Source of the DNA: Lachnospiraceae bacterium C7
Lineage (GTDB): Bacteria > Bacillota > Clostridia > Lachnospirales > Lachnospiraceae
Assembly (NCBI GenBank): GCA_900113385.1
Contig: FOPE01000022.1
Span: 1 to 48,505 of the forward strand
Direction of reading: 5' to 3'
DNA length: 48,505 nucleotides
Shown here: positions 37,837 through 48,505 of the stretch, piece after piece
Layout of the letters: the number at the start of each line of letters is the position of its first letter
How positions within the stretch are numbered: position 1 is the stretch's first letter
Notes under the pieces: generated by a model
What the model was told of the DNA's origin: nothing
Seen by the model: the letters and a program-made list of their open reading frames with translations, nothing else
Databases searched by the model: none
Program-made: the position numbers and the translations under genes

Positions 37837-39903
37837 ATGAAGTATTATGTAAATGGAAATGTAAAAAGAACAGGAATTGGGGATGAATACGCACCTTTTA
37901 TGACAATTCAGGAAGCTGCAGATGTAGCAAAACCAGGAGATGAAATATATGTCTATCCTGGAGTTTATCGTGAGTCTGTTAATCCAGTTTATTCAGGAGA
38001 AGAAAATAAACCAATAAAATATATTAGCGTTGAAAAACATAAGGCTATTATTACGGGTGCAGAAAGAGTTAAAGGCTGGAAGGCGCTTGGGAATGGTGTT
38101 TGGGAAAGAAGGATAAACTGCGAAATTTTTGGAGATTATAATCCTTACACAACGAGAGTTTCTGGGGATTGGTTTATTGCGGATTTTGTTGCACATACAG
38201 GAGATGTTTATTTGAATCATAAATCTATGTATGAAGTAACATCTGAAGAAGATGTAAAAAATCCTAAATTAAATCCAAATTCATGGGATAAAGAATTTTC
38301 AAAATATGTTTGGTATGCCAAAGAGGATAAAAAAAATAATCAGATAGTATTCCTTTGTAATTTTGATAAAGTAGATCCAAATGAGGAAATAGTTGAGATA
38401 AGCGTAAGAAAAAATTGCTTTTTCCCAAAACAAATAGGGAAAAATTATATACATCTAAGCGGTTTTGTTATAAGAGAAGCAGCAACTCAATGGGCGCCAC
38501 CTACAGCTTTTCAAGATGGAATGATTGGCCCACATTGGTCAAAAGGTTGGATGATAGAAGATTGTGATGTATATGAAAGCAAATGTGTTGGAATATCTTT
38601 GGGAAAGTACAAACAAGAGGATAATGACAACAAATGGCTGAATTGGAAATACAAAGATGGAGCACAAACTGAACGAGAATGTATCTGTGAAGCAGTTGTA
38701 AATGGATGGAACAAAGATAATATAGGTAGTCATATTGTTAGAAATTGTAAGATTCACGATTGCGGACAAGCCGGAATAGTGGGACATTTAGGCGCGGTAT
38801 TTAGTATAATTGAGGATAATGAAATCTACAATATTAATAATAAGCAGAATCTTGCAGGTGCTGAAATTGGAGGAATTAAATTACATGCTGCAATAGATAC
38901 AATTATCAGAAGAAATCATATTTATAATTGTACACGAGGATTGTGGTTAGACTGGCAGGCACAAGGAACAAGGGTTTCTCAAAATTTGTTCCATCATAAT
39001 ACGTTGCCAAAACTTGAAAAAGTTGAAAAATTAGATGCAGCAGCTTTTCAGGGGATGGGAGAAGATATTTTTGTAGAAGTGTCACATGGACCAACACTGA
39101 TAGATAATAATGTTCTTTTATCAGATCGAGCTATTAAACTTGCAAGTCAGGGTGTGGCGGTTGTTCACAATTTAATTGCAGGAGGATTAGTATCAATTGG
39201 GATAGGCACAGATAATGGTGGAGTGAAACTTAAAGATAAAACAGTTAGGTATACACCATATCATATGGCACATAGTACAGATATAATGGGATTTATGACT
39301 ATCTTACATGGAGATGATAAGTTCTATAATAACATTTTTATTCAGCAAGAAAAAAGAGCAGTTATGAAAAATGTTATGGAAGAGATATCAAAGGACGGCA
39401 ATAGATGGGATGATGGAAATATAAATGTTGGAACAGATGTATTTGATGATGGATTTTTGTCATTTGACGAGTGGAAACATGAGTTTGAAGGATATTGTGG
39501 AATGGGTTCGCCAGATACAGATAGATATTATATGCCTCTTCCTGTGTGGACAAATGGAAATGTATTTTTAAATGGAGCTAAACCTTGGAAAAAAGAAAAA
39601 AATTATAAGGTGGATTCTGATAAAAAATACAAGCTTAAACTTGTTTCTGACGAAAATGGTTGGTATTTAGATACTGATATATATGACTTTGTAGCAGAAG
39701 TAAAGAGTAATTTAGTAACAACAAAAACTCTTGGAATAGCATTCGAACCAGAAGAACAATTTGAAAATCCAAATGGTGAGCCATTAATTTTAGACAGAGA
39801 TTTTTATGGTAACATGAGAGAAATGTCAACAATTCCAGGACCATTTGCTTTTGAAAAAAGTGGAAAAACAAAAATTAAGATTTATTTAGATAAAAACTCA
39901 TAA
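37837..39903 (+). CDS. GH120-type beta-xylosidase (right-handed beta-helix)
   Basis: The sequence matches the GH120 family, known from XylC of Thermoanaerobacterium saccharolyticum, which hydrolyses xylo-oligosaccharides. Shared blocks are GDVYLN, KYVWYA, DPNEEIVEISVRKNCFFP, AATQWAPPTA, IGPHWSKGWMIED, IGSHIVRN, IVGHLGAVFS, GIKLHAAID, LWLDWQAQGTRVS and DIFVEVSHGP. The catalytic pair of the family corresponds to Asp372 (LWLDW) and Glu414 (FVEVSHGP). About 19 extra residues (LPKLEKVEKLDAAAFQGMG) lie between them compared with XylC. The 688-residue protein has no signal peptide, so it acts on imported sugars. AAGGAGGG precedes the ATG. It is a single gene, with TATAAT at 37796-37801 as a possible -10. 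Confidence 0.88.
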   Translation: MKYYVNGNVKRTGIGDEYAPFMTIQEAADVAKPGDEIYVYPGVYRESVNPVYSGEENKPIKYISVEKHKAIITGAERVKGWKALGNGVWERRINCEIFGDYNPYTTRVSGDWFIADFVAHTGDVYLNHKSMYEVTSEEDVKNPKLNPNSWDKEFSKYVWYAKEDKKNNQIVFLCNFDKVDPNEEIVEISVRKNCFFPKQIGKNYIHLSGFVIREAATQWAPPTAFQDGMIGPHWSKGWMIEDCDVYESKCVGISLGKYKQEDNDNKWLNWKYKDGAQTERECICEAVVNGWNKDNIGSHIVRNCKIHDCGQAGIVGHLGAVFSIIEDNEIYNINNKQNLAGAEIGGIKLHAAIDTIIRRNHIYNCTRGLWLDWQAQGTRVSQNLFHHNTLPKLEKVEKLDAAAFQGMGEDIFVEVSHGPTLIDNNVLLSDRAIKLASQGVAVVHNLIAGGLVSIGIGTDNGGVKLKDKTVRYTPYHMAHSTDIMGFMTILHGDDKFYNNIFIQQEKRAVMKNVMEEISKDGNRWDDGNINVGTDVFDDGFLSFDEWKHEFEGYCGMGSPDTDRYYMPLPVWTNGNVFLNGAKPWKKEKNYKVDSDKKYKLKLVSDENGWYLDTDIYDFVAEVKSNLVTTKTLGIAFEPEEQFENPNGEPLILDRDFYGNMREMSTIPGPFAFEKSGKTKIKIYLDKNS

Positions 39904-40222: not shown

Positions 40223-42427
40223 ATGAAGAAGAAAATAACTTCTACATATGTCTTAATCAGTTTATTAATTATGCAAGGTGCTATATGCGCCTTGCTTGTT
40301 TTAAATTGTTTGAGTAATATGTATAATGATAAATGGAGAAATTATGGCGAGAATGAGCAAAAAACTCATAAACTCTATATTAAAGATATATCAAATGACA
40401 AACAAGAACAGATTAGAAGTTTACTATTAGAAGAAGTAGATAGGGAACACGCTTTTATTTTTAAAAAAGTAAGTCTTAACCAGGGAGAATCCATAAGAGG
40501 AATGAAGATGGGGGTATACGGATATGTAAATAGTATGCCAGAGTTTGACTTCCTTGGTCGTGATATTGTAAATAAGAAATCAGTCGAAAAATTGTTAAAG
40601 TCAGAGAAAGATGAAAATACTTTAGGAGTTCTAAATGGTAGTGCAAATTCAATTGGAAATATTCCCCTTTTTAACTTTGGAGATAACTTTGTTATAGAAA
40701 AATTAAAACAGACAACTAAGGAAACTGTAAATGGACAATATTACATATCGGGATTAGATACTGCAAAATTTGACAGTTTAGTAAATGATTTAGCAAAAGC
40801 AACAAAACAAAATAGAGATAATTTCTTGATATCAAATCGTCAAGAAAGTGTGACAGCGCCATTAAGGGATATGTTTATAATAGGATTTGTAATAGGAAGC
40901 GTTATACTTAATGCAGTAGCCAATATGATACTTTATTTGTTAAGAATGAAGGATGAAGGAAAATATATATTAATGGGATGGTCTAGAAAATCTTTTTTCG
41001 CTATGTGCTATCAAGAGATTATTAATGCTGCATTTATTTTGATTCCAATAGTTGCAGTAGCGTTATTTGTTTTTTCGGGATGGAATAATAGTTCTATAAG
41101 TTTTATTAGCTATTGTATTTTGGCAGGTTTGATAAATGTGATTTTAATGTTTATCGAACTAATTCCAGTTGCATTAACATGTTTTAGTGTAAAACCTATT
41201 AATGCTATTCATGGTAGGGTACCGAAAAAAATGTTGTATATTTCTATGTCAGTTGTATACTTGATTGCTGTAGGAATGTTGCAAGGATCATGTTGGTACG
41301 TAGATGGTTTGAAAAAAAGTATAGATGAAAATTCAAAATTGCTAAGTCGTTGGGAAAAGGTGTCAGATTATAATGTATTGTATGACATTTTACCAGGTGA
41401 TGACCAAGAATCATTTGCGAATAATTCTAATAAATTAAGTATGGATGTGCTTGATTGGTATAAGAGCATGGAAGATAAAAAAGGTGTATATATAATTAAT
41501 ACTTCCGAGTATAGTAGCAGTGTAATACAGGGGTGGAAAGATTACAAGTCTTATAAAAATATACCAGATAAGCCATTTTGGTATTTTTATTATTCACCTA
41601 ATTATGCTAAAAAAGAGATTCCAGATTTAGATTCGAAACTGTTAGATGAGGCAAGAAATGGAGTGAGAGTATATCTTTTACCAGATACACTATCAAAAAA
41701 AGAAAAAATCAAGGTTGAAAAATGGATTAAGGAAGACACAGAAAGCAACATATCTGATGATGATATTAAAACTTCATTTGAAAGAAACAAAGAGTATAAG
41801 TTTGTATACTACAAACCAAAGAAAAAATTCTTTACATGGGGAACTAAATCTAAAGAAAAAATCGAAACAGATTCACCTTATATTTTGTTGACAACGTCTG
41901 AAAATATAAATTCTGTCGAATGTGATAATTTAAGGGCGGAAACACTTGAAAATACTATGATTAAACTTGAAAATACAAAACTTGCTGACAAGTACACTGA
42001 TATAAAGTATTTAAAGAAATATCATTTGGATGATAATAAAATTAAATTTATTGCAGTAAGAGAATATATAAATGGAATACAAAAAAGCCTAAGAACATCA
42101 ATATGTTGGTTTGGAGTTGTTATTGGTATTTTATCCGTTATAGTAACAGGAAATTTATTGGCAATAGCAGTACTTTATAAAAAGACTAATATCAAGAAAA
42201 ACAGTATAAAGAAATTTTTAGGTTATAGTAATTTACAAATGCATGGAAAAATTTCGGCTGTAGTTATTGTGGCTGTAATAATAGAAATTTTAATTGCAAA
42301 ATTGTTACAGTGCAGAATTGGTATGCTTATGACAACATTGTTAGGAATAGTGCAATTGGTTGTGCTTAAAGTGTACTTGTCAAAAAATGCAGTAGAAAGT
42401 ATAATCACAGAATTTAAGGAGAATTAA
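40223..42427 (+). CDS. bacteriocin-associated ABC transporter permease (DUF1430-like)
   Basis: The 734-residue protein resembles the seven-helix integral membrane proteins that accompany lactococcin-972-group bacteriocins and act in immunity or export. One N-terminal helix (about 8-30) is followed by an external domain (about 31-215). Four helices occupy about 218-365 (MFIIGFVIGSVILNAVANMI and on), then comes a second external domain (about 370-615) and three C-terminal helices (about 630-725). AGAGGTAAAAGGA precedes the ATG. It ends three bases before its ATPase gene. No lactococcin-972-like precursor lies upstream; the nearest bacteriocin gene is the circular type 1.2 kb downstream. Confidence 0.75.
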   Translation: MKKKITSTYVLISLLIMQGAICALLVLNCLSNMYNDKWRNYGENEQKTHKLYIKDISNDKQEQIRSLLLEEVDREHAFIFKKVSLNQGESIRGMKMGVYGYVNSMPEFDFLGRDIVNKKSVEKLLKSEKDENTLGVLNGSANSIGNIPLFNFGDNFVIEKLKQTTKETVNGQYYISGLDTAKFDSLVNDLAKATKQNRDNFLISNRQESVTAPLRDMFIIGFVIGSVILNAVANMILYLLRMKDEGKYILMGWSRKSFFAMCYQEIINAAFILIPIVAVALFVFSGWNNSSISFISYCILAGLINVILMFIELIPVALTCFSVKPINAIHGRVPKKMLYISMSVVYLIAVGMLQGSCWYVDGLKKSIDENSKLLSRWEKVSDYNVLYDILPGDDQESFANNSNKLSMDVLDWYKSMEDKKGVYIINTSEYSSSVIQGWKDYKSYKNIPDKPFWYFYYSPNYAKKEIPDLDSKLLDEARNGVRVYLLPDTLSKKEKIKVEKWIKEDTESNISDDDIKTSFERNKEYKFVYYKPKKKFFTWGTKSKEKIETDSPYILLTTSENINSVECDNLRAETLENTMIKLENTKLADKYTDIKYLKKYHLDDNKIKFIAVREYINGIQKSLRTSICWFGVVIGILSVIVTGNLLAIAVLYKKTNIKKNSIKKFLGYSNLQMHGKISAVVIVAVIIEILIAKLLQCRIGMLMTTLLGIVQLVVLKVYLSKNAVESIITEFKEN

Positions 42428-42430
42428 AAA

Positions 42431-43090
42431 ATGAAACAAAATGCCATAGAAGTAACTGGTTTAAATAAAAAGTTTGGGAATAGACATATTATAGAAAATT
42501 TTAATATTGAAATAGAAAAAGGAGAGTTTGTAGCAATTGTAGGGCCTAGTGGATGTGGAAAATCTACACTTCTTAATATTTTGGGAATGTTAGAAAATTA
42601 CGACGGAGGAAAAATTAAAATAAATGGGAAAAAGTTGCCAGAAATTAATTCCAAAGCAGCAACAATGGTTAGGAGAAAGGTAATTAATTATCTTTTTCAA
42701 AATTATGCATTAATAGATAATGAGACTGTAGAGAAAAATTTGCTTATAGCAATGGAATTTGTAAATAAATCTCATAAAGAAAAGATAAATATGATTTCAA
42801 AAACGTTAGATTATGTGGGATTAAAACATTTACAAAAGGAAGTTGTAAATACTTTATCAGGTGGAGAGCAACAGAGAGTGGCTTTAGCAAGAACTATATT
42901 AAAACCAGGAAACATTGTATTAGCCGATGAACCAACAGGTTCGTTAGATCCAAAATCCTCAGATAATGCATTTGGTTTGATTAAACAATTGTGTAAGGAA
43001 AATGGTAAAACAGTGGTAATGGTAACTCATAATATGGAATTAGCAAAAAGAGCAGATAGAATTGTTGAGATGCCACTGATTAGAAAATAA
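42431..43090 (+). CDS. bacteriocin-group ABC transporter ATP-binding protein
   Basis: This MacB/lactococcin-972-group ATPase energises the permease just upstream. The 219 residues contain Walker A GPSGCGKST, Q-loop LFQNYAL, signature TLSGGEQQRVALART, Walker B IVLADEPTGSLDP and H-loop VTHN. All catalytic residues are intact. AAGGAG lies ten bases before the ATG. A strong terminator follows, so permease and ATPase form a closed two-gene unit separate from the bacteriocin genes. Confidence 0.9.
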   Translation: MKQNAIEVTGLNKKFGNRHIIENFNIEIEKGEFVAIVGPSGCGKSTLLNILGMLENYDGGKIKINGKKLPEINSKAATMVRRKVINYLFQNYALIDNETVEKNLLIAMEFVNKSHKEKINMISKTLDYVGLKHLQKEVVNTLSGGEQQRVALARTILKPGNIVLADEPTGSLDPKSSDNAFGLIKQLCKENGKTVVMVTHNMELAKRADRIVEMPLIRK

Positions 43091-43106
43091 AAATTTAAAT
43101 GAACGT

Positions 43107-43145
43107 AAAAAGCGATGCACCTACCCCTAAGTGCATCGCTTTTTT
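43107..43145 (+). terminator. terminator of the ABC transporter pair
   Basis: AAAAAGCGATGCAC (43107-43120) pairs with GTGCATCGCTTTTT (43131-43144) and ends in T. Confidence 0.95.
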
Positions 43146-43185
43146 CGACTAGATTTTTTGATTTGTATAAATCAATACCTTATAA

Positions 43186-43272
43186 ATTATTATATACTCC
43201 TAAAAAGTTATACCTAAAATGATTAATTATTTAATACTCCTCAAGATTGCAATTAATTATTTGATACACTCC
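43186..43272 (+). repeat. degenerate direct repeats in the bacteriocin upstream region
   Basis: Three related A+T-rich units end in ATACTCC or ATACACTCC (at about 43194-43200, 43234-43240 and 43264-43272), the last two preceded by ATTAATTATTT. They lie between the transporter terminator and the bacteriocin genes. Role unknown; possibly regulator sites or decayed sequence. Confidence 0.35.
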
Positions 43273-43324
43273 CCAGTCGTACCAATCATCTGAAAAGAAA
43301 TCCCCATTTCCTAATCAGAATCAA

Positions 43325-43352
43325 TTGCCGTCTCTCTTTATGTTTATATAAT
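43325..43352 (+). promoter_or_regulatory. possible promoter of the circular bacteriocin operon
   Basis: TTGCCG (43325-43330), 16 bases, perfect TATAAT (43347-43352), giving a leader of about 245 bases. A second candidate nearer the gene is TTGACA at 43550-43555, followed by an AT dinucleotide run. Its spacing to the nearest -10-like boxes (9 or 23 bases) is wrong unless the run changes length. Confidence 0.4.
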
Positions 43353-43477
43353 AGCATGAATTTGAGACTGTGACTATTTAAGTCGCCAAAGTGTCGTTTT
43401 TTGTCTTAAAAATGCATTTTTATACATTGAGTACAATTATAATGATGTTTATGTAACTTATAAACAAGGTCACTTTG

Positions 43478-43508
43478 AAGAAGTATTTACACAAACTTCT
43501 TTACACAA
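43478..43508. promoter_or_regulatory. direct and inverted repeats upstream of the bacteriocin genes
   Basis: TTTACACAA occurs at 43486-43494 and again at 43500-43508. The first copy lies inside an inverted repeat AAGAAGT (43478-43484) / ACTTCTT (43495-43501). The layout suggests a regulator binding site; it does not match the spacing of LytTR-type boxes. Confidence 0.35.
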
Positions 43509-43603
43509 TCTTAAGGAAATATATATATAAAAAAATTTAGAAAAAAATATTGACAATATATATATATAATACTCCATGTATAAAATATAAAAAAGGAGAT
43601 AGT

Positions 43604-43633
43604 ATGATGGAAAGAAAAAAAATAAAATTTTAA
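43604..43633 (+). CDS. 9-codon frame at the start of the bacteriocin message (possible frameshift leader)
   Basis: AAAAGGAG (43591-43598) is the best ribosome binding site in the operon, and it serves ATGATG at 43604. The frame reads MMERKKIKF and stops at TAA 43631. Codons AAA AAA preceded by A (43615-43621) make the heptamer A-AAA-AAA inside an A8 run. A -1 shift there continues as NKILREGHVVSSM into the bacteriocin frame, giving a 100-residue precursor with a basic 36-residue leader. Alternatives are an indel in the A8 run (sequencing error or phase variation) or a true minicistron that couples translation. Confidence 0.45.
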   Translation: MMERKKIKF

Positions 43634-43644
43634 GAGAAGGTCAT

Positions 43645-43905
43645 GTGGTGAGTAGTATGATATTATGTATGCTGATAATAACAGGCATAAATTGTTGTAC
43701 AAATAGTAATTTGATAGCAACTTTGGGTATTTCAGCATACGCATCAAAAAAAATAATTGATATTATATCAACAGCTGGAACTGTTTGGAGTGTTGTAGGA
43801 ATAGTTGCGACTATTGCAGGATCAGGTGGAATTGGAGTAGGAGTATTGGCAACAGCAAAGCTTTTGGCGAAAAAATACGGAAGAAAATATGCTGCAAGAT
43901 GGTAA
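43645..43905 (+). CDS. circular bacteriocin precursor (amylocyclicin-like)
   Basis: The 86-residue frame has a hydrophobic, Cys-containing leader and a predicted 64-residue core from Leu23 (nucleotide 43711) to the terminal Trp86. The core begins LIATLGIS, then has KKIIDII, a Gly/Ala/Val-rich middle (VVGIVATIAGSGGIGVG), LATAK and the cationic end KKYGRKYAARW. As I recall it, amylocyclicin (64 residues) shares LGIS, KK.IDII, ATAK and KKYGKKYAA.W at the same places. Leu1 would be joined to Trp64 by a peptide bond. Start choice is unsure: GTG 43645, GTG 43648 (best spaced from GAGAAGG) or ATG 43657, or fusion to the upstream 9-codon frame by -1 shift. The mature peptide would permeabilise membranes of related bacteria. 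Confidence 0.85.
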   Translation: MVSSMILCMLIITGINCCTNSNLIATLGISAYASKKIIDIISTAGTVWSVVGIVATIAGSGGIGVGVLATAKLLAKKYGRKYAARW

Positions 43906-44440
43906 AATAGATAGGAGACGATATCAAAGGAAAAAATTGAAATCTAATCTTAGTGCTGAAATAAAATGGTTTGCTTGGTCGTTAGTTATATACATAATTG
44001 CCAATTTATTGTTTTACAGTTTTATAACAATAGTATTTAAAACACCTAAGTGCACCATTAGTAATCAAACAGCAGGAATAAGTTTTGTTGAAAAAATTGC
44101 AATAAATAATATGAAGAATTTATTTATGTATATTTTATTAGCACCTATTATGCCGATTTTATATTGTTGTGATATTTTTATTACTGATTACAATTTATTT
44201 AGTTTTATAAACAATTATGGATTGATACCATGTTTGTCAAAGATGGACAAACATGGTATATTAGAAAGCATAAATATCGCGTTTTATACAGCAATATCAT
44301 ATAGGCTTATGGTCTATTTTTATAAATGCGAATATAGGATGAAATCATATTTAAAAAAAATGTATCAATTTAGATATCATATTTTGCTAAGTATTATAAT
44401 GTTATTGATTTCTGCAATTCTGGAGGGTTTACTATATTGA
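43889..44440 (+). CDS. SpoIIM/DUF95-like membrane protein of the circular bacteriocin cluster
   Basis: Circular bacteriocin clusters always include a DUF95/SpoIIM-type membrane protein needed for maturation or secretion. The 183-residue protein has about four to five hydrophobic segments. It also has the family pattern: an INNMKNLFMYILLAPIMP helix, then GLIPCLSKMDKHGILESINI with the HGILE block, and AFYTAISYRL. Sequence identity to known members appears low. It overlaps the precursor gene by 17 bases. The ATG at 43889 has a weak site, and TTG 43937 behind AAAGG is an alternative start that would remove 16 charged residues. Confidence 0.7.
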   Translation: MLQDGKIDRRRYQRKKLKSNLSAEIKWFAWSLVIYIIANLLFYSFITIVFKTPKCTISNQTAGISFVEKIAINNMKNLFMYILLAPIMPILYCCDIFITDYNLFSFINNYGLIPCLSKMDKHGILESINIAFYTAISYRLMVYFYKCEYRMKSYLKKMYQFRYHILLSIIMLLISAILEGLLY

Positions 44441-45069
44441 ATTTACTTGCAAAAAATATTAATAAAGCTTATGAAAACCTCGAAGTTATAATGGATTTTT
44501 CGTATGAATTTGTAGGCGGAAATGTATATAAAATAGAAGGAAGAAATGGAACAGGTAAATCTACGTTATTAAGAATTTTAAGCGGTTTAGAACAATGTGA
44601 AAGTGGAACTATATTGGTTCAAAATCAAAAAAAATTGATTAGCATAGAAGAATATTCCAAAGCCAATAAAATTTTATATCTACCAGACATTGATTTATGT
44701 CAAGAATGGCTTACGATAGAAGAAAATATCGAATGGTTACATGTTATGAGTGGGGTTAAAATGGACGAGACAGTAGAGTTGTATAGAGAATTAAATATTC
44801 TTGAGGAAGATTACAAAAAAGTTGCTGTAGAGTGTTCGTTAGGAACTAGAATGAAAGTTGGATTATCCTTGTTGTATTCACTATATGATTACAAATTAAT
44901 TTTTATAGATGAAACATTAGCACATTTAGATACAATTTTCAGAGAAAAATATCTAAAAAAATTAAAAAATTACGCAAAAAACAAAAACGCAGTTATTTTT
45001 TTGATTGACCACGAAGATATAGATGATAGCAGTATAAAAACAATTAAGTTAGTCAAAGGAGATATATAG
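44437..45069 (+). CDS. ABC-type ATPase of the circular bacteriocin cluster
   Basis: A dedicated ATPase is the third constant component of circular bacteriocin loci and probably powers export and/or immunity together with the DUF95 protein. The 210 residues show Walker A EGRNGTGKST near residue 34, Walker B LIFIDETLAHLD and a His in LIDHED. The signature is degenerate (ECSLGTRMKVGLS instead of LSGGQ), as is frequent in this subgroup. The start is TTG 44437 with GGAGGG nine bases upstream, overlapping the previous stop. Confidence 0.85.
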   Translation: MNLLAKNINKAYENLEVIMDFSYEFVGGNVYKIEGRNGTGKSTLLRILSGLEQCESGTILVQNQKKLISIEEYSKANKILYLPDIDLCQEWLTIEENIEWLHVMSGVKMDETVELYRELNILEEDYKKVAVECSLGTRMKVGLSLLYSLYDYKLIFIDETLAHLDTIFREKYLKKLKNYAKNKNAVIFLIDHEDIDDSSIKTIKLVKGDI

Positions 45070-45080
45070 GGGTCATGAAT

Positions 45081-45539
45081 ATGGAAAGCACTAATAAAAA
45101 AGAATGCAAGAAAAAAGATTTTAATATATGGTTTACTACATTAAACTTTATTATATATTTAGGGTTATATTTAGGGTTATATTTGTGGTGTAATTATACA
45201 ATTATTTTTAATAATAAAAAAATGCATGGGAAAATAGAAGAAGCGTTAAACTTGATTAAAGATGATTTAAAAAATCCAATGTTTTTTGTTATAAGTATAA
45301 TTATCATTCAAGCCATTTGTGTGGTAATCTTAAATTATTTATTATTAAGAGTTGTGATAGGTTTATGCAGATCAAATCATATTAGTCGAGCTAAATCTTT
45401 AAATGTAATTTTCTTAGCTAAATTTGAAAGCTTATTATTTGCTATAATTGTGTCTAATTTATTTAGAAATTCGACAAATTTTAATTTTGATACCTACAAT
45501 TCTTTAACACCTAATTCGTATTTTAAGGTGTTACTATAA
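45081..45539 (+). CDS. small membrane protein of the circular bacteriocin cluster
   Basis: This is not a recognised family. The 152 residues start with a Lys-rich cytoplasmic stretch (NKKECKKKDF). They have a first membrane segment containing the repeat YLGLYLGLYLW, a second (MFFVISIIIIQAICVVIL, continuing NYLLLRVVIGL) and a third (NVIFLAKFESLLFAIIVSNL). It is last in the operon, a place where circular bacteriocin loci carry immunity or accessory membrane proteins, so an immunity role is a reasonable guess. It is larger than the classical 50-60-residue cationic immunity peptides. ATG 45081 is preferred to 45075 because AGGGG is eight bases before it. Confidence 0.6.
   Translation: MESTNKKECKKKDFNIWFTTLNFIIYLGLYLGLYLWCNYTIIFNNKKMHGKIEEALNLIKDDLKNPMFFVISIIIIQAICVVILNYLLLRVVIGLCRSNHISRAKSLNVIFLAKFESLLFAIIVSNLFRNSTNFNFDTYNSLTPNSYFKVLL
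45154..45184 (+). repeat. 12-bp tandem repeat within the membrane protein gene
   Basis: TTATATTTAGGG is repeated about 2.6 times in frame and encodes the repeated YLGL in the first membrane segment. A change in copy number would alter the helix by four residues without breaking the frame. Confidence 0.7.
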
Positions 45540-45582
45540 AAACCGCAATGCCTTGATTTTACTACAGTTTTGGTAAGTGAGG

Positions 45583-45658
45583 TTTCCCTTAGACTTTCCC
45601 TTATGTTATATCCTTTTCCCTTGTGTTACGACACCTCATAAGGGCAAAAATAAGGGAA
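45583..45658. repeat. cluster of TTTCCCTT direct and inverted repeats
   Basis: TTTCCCTTA occurs at 45583-45591 and 45595-45603, TTTCCCTTG at 45615-45623, and the inverse TAAGGG at 45639-45644 and TAAGGGAA at 45651-45658. The sequence just before (CCTTGATTTTACTACAG, then TTTTGGTAAG) resembles the DNA next to integration sites of tyrosine-recombinase elements. It may be an attachment region or old element end; no integrase is present. Confidence 0.45.
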
Positions 45659-45764
45659 GTAAAATCTGGTAACAGCTAATAACATTATATAAATCACATA
45701 ATCGGCTGGAACTGGTTGAGATGCTTCTAAGACTAAAACAGATAAAAGAAAGGACTTTGCAAAT

Positions 45765-46007
45765 ATGAATATCGTACACGCTGAATATAACAAATATCAC
45801 AATACCATAGACATTAATTATTATAATGGCTACATTCTTCGAATTGATTGCGGCAGGGCAGAAGCAGGACTGATTACCACACCAAACTCTCAAAGGATGT
45901 TGGATGCTCTTGCGATTGATAATCCATTAGAATATGTCTGTTTGTATCTTAATTCAGAAATGCAAGATTGGGTAAATGCAGCTGATATGGAATGGTATAA
46001 CACCTAA
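45765..46007 (+). CDS. DUF6061-like small protein
   Basis: The 80-residue acidic protein looks like the DUF6061 family, small proteins of unknown function that I associate with mobile elements of Firmicutes. The pattern HAEYNKYHNTIDINYYNGYI, an Arg-Ile-Asp-Cys strand, then ALAIDNPLEYVCLYLNSEMQ, fits. AAAGGAC lies about ten bases before the ATG. It stands among element remnants. Confidence 0.5.
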   Translation: MNIVHAEYNKYHNTIDINYYNGYILRIDCGRAEAGLITTPNSQRMLDALAIDNPLEYVCLYLNSEMQDWVNAADMEWYNT

Positions 46008-46009
46008 TA

Positions 46010-46111
46010 ATAGAACATCAAAAAGAATTAGGAATTAATACCAACGGTAAGAAGGAAATTCTGAGTATCAATGTAGATGATAACGAAAGTGCTAAATACT
46101 GTCTTTCATAA
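46010..46111 (+). pseudogene. fragment of an IS256-family (Mutator-type) transposase
   Basis: In one frame the sequence reads LGINTNGKKEILSINV, then DDNESAKYCLS and a stop. This matches the internal block of Mutator-type transposases (LGINTDGKKEILG.., DNESAKYWL) next to a catalytic Asp strand. Nothing before or after continues the match, so only about 30 codons remain of a transposase of roughly 400 codons. The element is dead. Confidence 0.75.
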
Positions 46112-46119
46112 AAATGAGC

Positions 46120-46151
46120 AAAGAAAAGCGACCAACATTTCTGTTGATCGC
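46120..46151 (-). terminator. probable terminator of the minus-strand gene pair
   Basis: On the minus strand GCGATCAACA-GAAA-TGTTGGTCGC (one mismatch) is followed by a T-rich TTTTCTTT. It ends transcription coming from the gene at 46284-47042. Confidence 0.6.
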
Positions 46152-46283
46152 CAATTGCTTATTTCAAGAGTTTTTTCGAACTAAGAAGATCATAACCTTC
46201 ATTGTATCAGACAGAAAGCGTAACACATCCTGTTTTCTTAAACTTCAAGTCACTATAGAATATCTCATCCTTTTATCCCCCAA

Positions 46284-47042
46284 TTATTGTTGAGGAAAAA
46301 AGCGAGCATGTGACATTATGTTATGGGTTTCATTAATAAAATAACTATTACTATTCATAATTTCAGATAAAATGCTTATTGACGCTCCAGTTTTATAATT
46401 AGGAGATGTTCTCAATTTAAATAGTCTTTCCCTTGCTTTTTCAAGGATTTTTTGAGATGTATCAATGTAACGATTTGTATTCTGTTCTTCTTCATCAGAA
46501 TGAATTCCAGCAAAGAATTCGTCTCCATTACTCGTTTTTAAGCACCATATATAGCCTTTTATCATACTAACTTCTCTGTCATATGCTCTATTTAGCCCAT
46601 CTAAATCTTGCTCTAATGTAAGCGATGCTTCACCTGCCAAATCATATGAAACTTTCCGATCTCCACTTTCATGAGCTTTCATAATTTCGTTGTATCGATT
46701 TTCGTATGCACTTACTATGGATTTCATAACATCTTCCATACTATATTGTCCTTTTTTGTCCTCAAGAAGTGTATGTCTATTCGCCCTCATTGCAAAAAAA
46801 TGTTCCATTTCAAGCTCATTGGTATCATCAATCGTCACTTCATAAAGTGGTGTATCATCTTTCACTGTATTTTTCTGAACATAAGACTTGTAAGCTGCTA
46901 TTCCTTCTTTCGAAATATCTACTTTTACTGGCACTTGTGGAGAATCACCATTCGTTAGCCCTAAATTTACCTTTTTAGAGTAACGCTGGTCACTATCAAA
47001 TAAATTTATCTTATCATATGATGATGGCGTACATATTTTCAT
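46284..47042 (-). CDS. hypothetical protein
   Basis: The 252-residue soluble protein is not recognised. It is charged, without signal peptide or membrane segment. It has VPVKVDISKEGIAAYKSYVQ near residue 40, an acidic strand (LYEVTIDDTNELEMEHFFAM), then a largely helical region (YSMEDVMKSIVSAYENRYNE, KILEKARERLFKLRTS) that could form coiled coils. ATG 47042 is chosen because GGAGGTGATTGT precedes it; an upstream in-frame ATG at 47087 lies inside the preceding gene. It follows the truncated secreted-protein gene by 16 bases and is probably cotranscribed with it. Confidence 0.6.
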   Translation of the reverse strand: MKICTPSSYDKINLFDSDQRYSKKVNLGLTNGDSPQVPVKVDISKEGIAAYKSYVQKNTVKDDTPLYEVTIDDTNELEMEHFFAMRANRHTLLEDKKGQYSMEDVMKSIVSAYENRYNEIMKAHESGDRKVSYDLAGEASLTLEQDLDGLNRAYDREVSMIKGYIWCLKTSNGDEFFAGIHSDEEEQNTNRYIDTSQKILEKARERLFKLRTSPNYKTGASISILSEIMNSNSYFINETHNIMSHARFFPQQ

Positions 47043-47058
47043 ACAATCACCTCCGAGA

Positions 47059-48168
47059 CTACCAAGTAGTTGGTTCATTTCCATCATAATATGGATAGTA
47101 ATATTTGGTAGCCGTACTGTAAGGTCTGGTAAATGTCATAGAATTACTTCCCGTTGCATATTCATAAAAATAATTAATATGTTCGATGTCGACTAATTTT
47201 CCAGTATTAGGATCTATGAAAACGGTCACAAAATTTAAATCCTTATAGTAATTATTTGCTGCATATGAACCAGTACATCTACAATGTAACTTATAAAACT
47301 TTTCATTAGCCGAATATACAGATAATTCCAATACATTTCCAGATGCTCCAACACCTTTTGAACCTTTCATATAATAAACTGTATCAGGCATTGTCATCCC
47401 ATAATAAATTGCCGTCTCCGCATCCTCAAACATAAACTGATTTTGAAATATTTTTGCCTTTAAATCAGATGCATTATTCATAGAAATATCATATATCTGT
47501 GTACCGGCAGAATTAGAAGCATTAACATTATAGGAATAGCTTATATCTATTGGATTTCCATTAACATACATGCTTCCGCCTGTTGAATCAGTTTGAAATA
47601 TGATACCAGCTTTATCATTAATCATATAGTAGAATGACTTACTATCATTTGCAATTGATGAAATCTTATTCACGTTCAATGTATATGTATTCGTCAAACT
47701 ATAAGTACCATCATTACTATACATATCAATATAATATGTACCTGCATCAAATTGGTATAAGTGTTCCGCTTCTGAGATTTTATAAATACTAGTGGCACTA
47801 TTTTCCTTAGCTACTCCCCAGTTATATGAACCACTGGTAGTTATTTTAAGTATTGCAGGTTTGTCAAGTGTAAACGTATAATAATCATTATCATATGGAT
47901 TATCGATTATGCCTTTTTGGCTAGTTCCCAATACAATTGGTGTAGCTGTTTCTTTAGTATCATTAGATTCGTTGGTTACATCATTAGTCGCATAATATGC
48001 AAACGCAAACTTTCCATTTCCTTCATAGGCACTAATTGCAAAATAGTAAATCCCATTTTGCACTACATCAGTACAAAATTCGCTAACACCTAAGCCAGCC
48101 GTTGCACTTCCCGATATCAATTCAAGAGAAGATGTTTCCTCATTTAACTTAAATAGATATATATCCAC
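47059..48168 (-). CDS. 5'-truncated extracellular protein with PPC-like beta domains
   Basis: The remaining 369 residues resemble repeated prepeptidase-C-terminal (PPC)-type beta-sandwich modules. A partial first unit (DIYLFKLNEETSSLELISGS through GIYYFAISAYEG) is followed by a complete second one (NDTKETATPIVLGTSQKGII, NPYDNDYYTFTLDKPAILKI, DAGTYYIDMYSNDG). A Tyr/Asn-rich C-terminal domain of unknown type completes it. There is no signal peptide. The GTG at 48168 has no ribosome binding site. Upstream in frame the coding sense continues for only three or four codons (QVDV) before a TAA. The 5' part was therefore probably lost at an insertion junction near 48177, making this a likely pseudogene. 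Confidence 0.6.
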   Translation of the reverse strand: MDIYLFKLNEETSSLELISGSATAGLGVSEFCTDVVQNGIYYFAISAYEGNGKFAFAYYATNDVTNESNDTKETATPIVLGTSQKGIIDNPYDNDYYTFTLDKPAILKITTSGSYNWGVAKENSATSIYKISEAEHLYQFDAGTYYIDMYSNDGTYSLTNTYTLNVNKISSIANDSKSFYYMINDKAGIIFQTDSTGGSMYVNGNPIDISYSYNVNASNSAGTQIYDISMNNASDLKAKIFQNQFMFEDAETAIYYGMTMPDTVYYMKGSKGVGASGNVLELSVYSANEKFYKLHCRCTGSYAANNYYKDLNFVTVFIDPNTGKLVDIEHINYFYEYATGSNSMTFTRPYSTATKYYYPYYDGNEPTTW

Positions 48169-48242
48169 ATCAACCTGTTATGAAGTGACCTTTGTCAAGT
48201 GTAAATTGCAAAAATCACCACATTTCCTTTCTTTTAAATTTT

Positions 48243-48457
48243 AACACTGGGTACAGAGGTAGAACCTCAGACTAACAGTCCCCGGCCTTGGCCACTCTGT
48301 TATACGTGGATTGATTACCAACAGGTCAATGGTCCGCCGTGAATCTTGCCGTCTCCTAGCGTGAATCAAAATATATATAATATAATGTCAACAGAGGTTG
48401 ATCGCAAATAATTCGGACCTTAGAATGCTCCAAGGCTCTACCTCTGTATCCAGTGTT
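48243..48457. mobile_element. 215-bp element with 24-bp terminal inverted repeats (MITE-like or structured RNA)
   Basis: The left end AACACTGGGTACAGAGGTAG (48243 on, 24 bases) and the right end (48434-48457), read on the other strand as AACACTGGATACAGAGGTAG, are inverted copies with two mismatches. Inside are small dyads (GAGG-TAGAA-CCTC, GACT-AAC-AGTC, GGCCTTGGCC), and its GC content is visibly above the surroundings. No open frame of useful length is present. Target duplications are not obvious. It lies just outside the truncated gene, so it belongs to the sequence that disrupted it. The bases 48169-48242 hold no gene I can support. Confidence 0.55.
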
Positions 48458-48505
48458 GATTAGTTATTTTTAGCAGATAAAATCTGACAAAGTCAGTTTC
48501 TTCTG

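Follow-up and report, generated by a model that had tools for sequence, protein, structure and literature searches.

Circularin A (cirABCDE) and enterocin NKR-5-3B (enkBB1B2B3B4) are circular bacteriocins whose gene clusters place the gene of a large membrane protein after that of the precursor (PMC6131525), and in the clusters studied so far the loss of single genes blocks production (PMC6131525, PMC10028692). The leader of NKR-5-3B is 23 amino acids (aa) long (PMC6131525), and its truncation disables the peptide, whereas a leader consisting of Met alone suffices for circularin A (PMC10028692). A circular bacteriocin from the rumen, butyrivibriocin AR10 of Butyrivibrio fibrisolvens, has been described (PMC13289728, PMC10028692, PMC8534725, PMC7132975), and a 2026 survey of the Hungate1000 collection lists ten such peptides from rumen isolates, nine of them from Lachnospiraceae; it names one from Lachnobacterium C7, which is 55% identical to NKR-5-3B, one from L. 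bovis, which is 75.7% identical to circularin A, and one from [Clostridium] polysaccharolyticum (PMC13289728). Among clusters found by genome mining, several appear to be incomplete or vestigial (PMC7132975). Here, we describe a locus in Lachnospiraceae bacterium C7, on a contig of 48,505 nucleotides (FOPE01000022.1; contig C80 of a 91-contig draft, analysed whole and referred to below as the window), with a precursor gene (A) and the partner genes C, D and E. We read it as a group i circular bacteriocin locus, with NKR-5-3B as the nearest characterised member found, and think it likely that this copy is decaying and does not produce the peptide.

The precursor frame (43645-43905, + strand, 86 aa) scores 45.8 bits with TIGR03651 and 45.5 bits with PF09221, above the curated cut-offs of 30.7 and 23.6, respectively, as the original prediction of a circular bacteriocin had anticipated. 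Its core was also placed correctly by that prediction, which had it begin with the Leu at 43711 and end with the last residue, Trp: it comprises 64 residues (43711-43902, Leu1 to Trp64; residue 1, a TTG codon, was given as Met in the first alignment, made for the genome scan, and as Leu in the later ones) and aligns ungapped with PDB 2mp8, the structure of NKR-5-3B, over 64/64 positions (E 2.7e-15), with 35/64 residues identical (54.7%). With a pI of 10.29, eight Lys/Arg and one Asp/Glu, the core falls within group i (cationic, pI above 9), and its GRAVY value of 0.81, hydrophobic N-terminus and aromatic C-terminus fit a hydrophobic core of 58-70 residues. The predicted mass is 6491.7 Da for the linear form and, less 18, 6473.65 Da for the ring. 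Twelve residues that are invariant in 14 other aligned cores are all kept. Judged by its sequence, A is soundly assigned as a genuine circular bacteriocin precursor of the circularin A/uberolysin family, group i.

Among 17 related cores (the count for the Heyndrickxia row is void, as that row is out of register), the nearest are those of Marinilactibacillus kalidii (45/64 identical), an Enterococcus faecalis plasmid (44/64), Marinilactibacillus psychrotolerans (43/64) and Sporolactobacillus (40/64). The cores of Bacillus siamensis and B. velezensis (L037 and L038), which we take to be amylocyclicin, share length and motifs with the window core and 32/64 residues, fewer than the M. kalidii or E. 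faecalis cores, and in these loci D precedes C; the earlier label 'amylocyclicin-like' holds in the sense of a place close to a subgroup that contains both amylocyclicin and NKR-5-3B. The NKR-5-3B cluster (enkB-B1-B2-B3-B4) shares the 64-residue core, the Leu1/Trp64 ends and partners of the same kinds (SpoIIM protein, ATPase and membrane protein). It differs in that B adjoins A in the Enterococcus thailandicus locus L036, which has an identical core, as opposed to the presumed order A-C-D-E-B of the window lineage, and in that the window locus has B broken, E split and an uncertain start. Circularin A belongs to the same TIGR03651 family and has the same kinds of partner genes, but its core has 69 residues (PMC7132975). 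Butyrivibriocin AR10 is a group ii peptide of 58 residues and acidic (PMC10028692, PMC6131525), unlike the window core. The peptide reported from Lachnobacterium C7 may be the window peptide, a comparison made by identity figure only (55% against 54.7% to NKR-5-3B). Together with a circularin-like peptide in a genome of the same genus, this figure makes it likely that the window comes from that Lachnobacterium. The original prediction was right about the kind of peptide; its newness is weak, as a peptide of about this identity to NKR-5-3B has already been reported from Lachnobacterium C7 (PMC13289728). The portion of the survey available mentions no disrupted cluster for it (PMC13289728).

Downstream of A, three frames follow on the + strand, and all frames predicted earlier are present in the sequence. 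C (43889-44440, 183 aa) begins inside the end of A, and an alternative TTG start at 43937 would bring its length nearer that of its relatives. With PF01944 (SpoIIM) it scores 26.5 bits, slightly below the cut-off of 26.9; with a model of the SpoIIM proteins from seven circular-bacteriocin loci, however, it reaches 102 bits, with none of 300 shuffled versions of the protein exceeding 7.0. It is thus the SpoIIM/DUF95-like protein that had been proposed, and supplies the gene of this kind required of a circular bacteriocin cluster. D (44437-45069, 210 aa) is an ABC ATPase with 154 bits to the D model and an intact Walker A motif. Its signature, CSLGTRMKVGL, follows the pattern S-x-G-x-x-x-K where LSGGQ would be standard; the degenerate signature noted earlier is real and is the family's own, because it is altered in the same way in the seven relatives compared, themselves retrieved by such a pattern. 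E is a small membrane protein whose 5' part (45075-45475) matches a 177-aa protein of a genome of the same genus used for comparison (G443); with the E model it scores 18.2 bits in the window and 24.0 bits in G443, compared with at most 8.7 for shuffled versions of any of the proteins. Its open frame runs on into foreign sequence to 45539 (45075-45539, 154 aa). The SpoIIM protein, ATPase and small membrane protein are, as predicted, the usual partners, but the set is incomplete, with B missing and E split.

A Tn916-like integrative element interrupts E, and its left end makes up 45476-48505. The element is placed in E because the alignment between the window and G443 ends at 45487, and because the element end is matched from 45476 in another genome (G423), where 552 bp starting at this base recur at a different place with 89.5% identity. 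The 154-aa frame is therefore only in part the original gene, its last 21 or so residues being encoded by the inserted element. Residues 1-134 of the 177 in G443 lie in the window at 45075-45488, and residues 129-177 on a second contig of the same genome (C68, 7000-7146); both halves are found once each, and an integrase lies beside the latter. On C68 1-7001, we found an integrase (PF00589, 96.8 bits), a Tn916-type excisionase (PF09035, 36.6 bits, cut-off 22.9) and a MobA/MobL relaxase (29.7 bits, cut-off 26.7); the first two give the combination by which we call an element Tn916-like, a tyrosine integrase with a Tn916-type excisionase near the element end. Seven frames were scanned, five on C68 and two in the window, of which only the relaxase points to transfer; the element spans the two contigs. 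That the two contigs are neighbours is supported because a single contig of G443 carries both flanks, the atp genes next to the window part and tyrS (named by eye) next to the C68 part. A secreted protein running across the contig ends was also considered and found no support.

B is absent from the window, and its only matches in the genome are pieces on C68, where the gene is broken into two frames of 169 and 196 aa. These score 18.2 and 13.2 bits with a ten-sequence B model (0/1000 shuffles reached either score; 0/500 and 1/500 for local shuffles), whereas a seven-sequence model gave no match in the strain's own genome. The difference in length from the G443 gene is one base and lies outside any run of equal bases. 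Production and immunity call for a minimal set of five to seven genes, which is thus incomplete here. In a survey of 19 related loci on the + strand with models of A to E (L011 and L013 left out; seven of the surveyed loci served as the training set of the B model), B adjoins A in 12/19 (in L041 and L044 as fragments only), five Bacillus/Heyndrickxia loci are ordered A..D..C, L049 reads A..C-D-E with no B detected, and L016 contains only A. Of the 15 loci (out of 19) in which C was detected, none has it directly after A, unlike the window, where the C match begins 62 bp past the end of the core; the next nearest lies at 1158 bp (L049). In G443 the order C'-D-E-B is uninterrupted, and together the two genomes suggest an ancestral order A-C-D-E-B that would be decaying in both.

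In an intact locus of this kind, a short leader would be removed from the precursor, Leu1 and Trp64 would be joined head to tail, and the membrane machinery of B, C and D would mature and export the ring; by analogy, this cationic, helical ring would damage the membranes of competing Gram-positive bacteria. The sequence match to NKR-5-3B would also suggest a saposin-like fold of four or five helices. In the window strain, the integrative element splits E, B is frame-broken, and the best ribosome site of the precursor opens a frame that soon stops. We infer that this strain makes no mature peptide, because single-gene knockouts abolish production in the studied clusters.

The history of the locus is illuminated by G443, in which a stretch corresponding to 43177-44187 (+ strand; upstream intergenic region, A and first half of C) is absent from the syntenic locus. 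The precursor and most of C are lost there, and D and E are open, with 99% and 95% identity to the window, respectively. Long blocks of this island are 96-99% identical in DNA between the two genomes, compared with 83.2% for the flanking atp stretch and 85.4% on the tyrS side, and the G+C content is 29.3% in the island and 37.3% in the atp stretch. The simplest reading would be a recent exchange of the island between species. A search of 62 genomes of the genus with 40223-45539 gave matches in 26 (E up to 0.001), of which only the window's own and G443 are long and near-identical; the other 24 are short or distant, mostly over the ABC ATPase gene. A protein encoded at 37837-39903, with a GH120 insertion domain (PF21258, 110 bits) and a beta-helix, goes with the island, with 96% DNA identity in G443. 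The survival of D and E in G443 after the loss of A and most of C is also what would be expected if C, D and E were kept under selection for protection against producers while the production genes decay, and in NKR-5-3B the membrane protein EnkB1 and the ATPase EnkB3 give partial immunity (PMC6131525). We nevertheless consider such an immunity-only remnant unlikely, as E itself is split in the window and a recent exchange could give high identity without selection.

Where translation of A would start is doubtful. An ATG at 43604 with a strong Shine-Dalgarno site (5' bases AAAAAAGGAGATAGT) opens a frame on the + strand that reads MMERKKIKF and then stops (43604-43633); a start at this position, implied by a coordinate of the original prediction, therefore yields a nine-residue product in a different frame. 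The frame of the precursor has no stop from 43603 on, yet its earliest start codon is at 43645, and the only GTG and ATG codons available lie at 43645-43657. GTG 43645 is preceded merely by AGAGAAGGTCAT, and GTG 43648 by the Shine-Dalgarno-like AGAAGG. A run of A residues (43615-43622) lies between ATG 43604 and the precursor frame, and the start may be one of the GTG/ATG codons, the leader frame may be broken next to this run, or slippage may join the frames. G443 offers no counterpart, as the start region of A falls within the stretch absent there. If GTG 43645 or 43648 were used, C and D might suffice, with B supplied from elsewhere or after excision of the element, and the locus would be a new and working one. 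The conserved core residues, the AGAAGG motif, and C and D frames that are open over the full length of their models or nearly so are consistent with this. We regard it as quite improbable, given that B is broken and E split in this assembly, that apart from the C68 pieces the genome gave no match to B (and with the seven-sequence model no match at all), and that losses of single genes block production (PMC10028692, PMC6131525).

The draft state of the assembly, with the element flanks on two contigs and a precursor frame break that adjoins the A run, invites the suspicion that the junctions between E and the element, or the frame break in B, are absent from the cell. The chance of this is small, since the element in G423 ends at the identical base, each half of E is found once with an integrase beside one of them, and the length difference in B lies outside a homopolymer. 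There is a comparably small chance that the locus represents a divergent clostridial branch of the form A-C-D-E-B, with a strongly diverged B and exchanged between species at a single chromosomal site flanked by the atp genes and tyrS, which intact relatives would express from an unusual start and which is switched off here by an element whose excision may restore it. Least probable is that slippage on the A run links translation begun at ATG 43604, with its strong ribosome site, to the frame of A so that the precursor is made: this frame is open from 43603 and the leaders of relatives open with a Lys-rich stretch (in L015, Lys/Arg somewhat later), but the run is not special because 14 runs of eight or more A occur in the window, no such arrangement is seen in the relatives read, and a plain frame break explains the pattern equally well.

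The region upstream of A contains a permease of 734 aa (40223-42427) and an ABC ATPase of 219 aa (42431-43090), both on the + strand. The ATPase matches TIGR03608, the lactococcin-972 export type, at 260 bits (cut-off 254.85), whereas the permease gave no match to TIGR01654, the bacteriocin-associated type, at E up to 5 in searches with Pfam and NCBIfam models. A hairpin of 17 pairs (43107-43144), listed by the prediction tool as a terminator on the - strand, separates the pair from the precursor. An exporter/immunity pair had been proposed here; the pair is present and its ATPase is of the lactococcin-972 type, but with the hairpin in between it is probably better read as a separate unit. Parts of the intergenic stretch 43107-43567 recur in the same genome on contigs C33 (322 bp, 76%), C19 (67 bp, 98.5%) and C62 (124 bp, 85%), and a promoter scan gave 22 against a shuffle mean of 20.8, no excess. 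A second ABC pair lies on the - strand beside B (L010 9357-12327 and L055 8400-10929), its permease in G443 weakly matching TIGR01654. In G443 it is followed by a secreted-looking frame of 119 aa, most of which C68 lacks; a lactococcin-972-like identity for this frame was suggested by eye and by its neighbours only, and matches to such a family were found in neither Pfam nor NCBIfam.

With TIGR03651, matches were obtained in 3/397 genomes of the family (that of the window itself, G278 and, falsely, G283, where the match of 23.4 bits is below the cut-off and inside an ABC permease gene) and in 3/391 of the class (again that of the window, G483 with two matches, and G574). The G278 core is the same as that of [Clostridium] polysaccharolyticum DSM 1801 (L044), a Lachnospiraceae species. 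A match to B in G901 (E 8e-5) was rejected, with no bacteriocin gene found in the surrounding 16 kb. Among plasmid records, 111 matched the precursor (E up to 0.01), 110 being from Enterococcus; no relatives of the precursor were found in phage records or in viral contigs (0/41 stretches). On an Enterococcus faecium plasmid (NZ_OR095733.1; L016 4858-6195), an NKR-5-3B-like precursor adjoins an IS30 transposase, and partner genes were not found in 12.2 kb with our own models and tblastn.

Five of the Lachnospiraceae loci read carry such a core or its remains. In Petralouisia muris (L046), A to E are open and in the usual order. In the other four, G443 has lost the precursor, the window locus is split by the element, and in Lachnospiraceae bacterium 3-1 (L041 6312-8217) and [C.] polysaccharolyticum (L044 6326-7090) B stops short and is followed by a transposase gene, of the DDE_5/DDE_Tnp_1 and rve families. 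Weighing against decay being general, G443 has, about 8.6 kb from its relic, a circularin A-like cluster that, to judge from the sizes and order of its genes, looks complete (L064 5913-9911, corresponding to about 71912-75910 on its contig C38). It consists of a 73-aa precursor (77.1 bits), a LytTR-like regulator (assigned by eye), proteins of 543, 176 and 213 aa and a 53-aa frame, the neighbours including a SpoIIM-like protein (9.7 bits with the C model) and an ATPase (48.2 bits with the D model).

The rumen survey called a circular bacteriocin when a cluster combined a SpoIIM gene with a short gene for the core (PMC13289728). The window locus would pass this test, yet it is very probably not functional, although its core could in itself plausibly form an antibacterial ring. 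Because most of the Lachnospiraceae loci read look broken while the circularin-like one of G443 looks complete, the fraction of predicted clusters that really make a peptide becomes a testable question.
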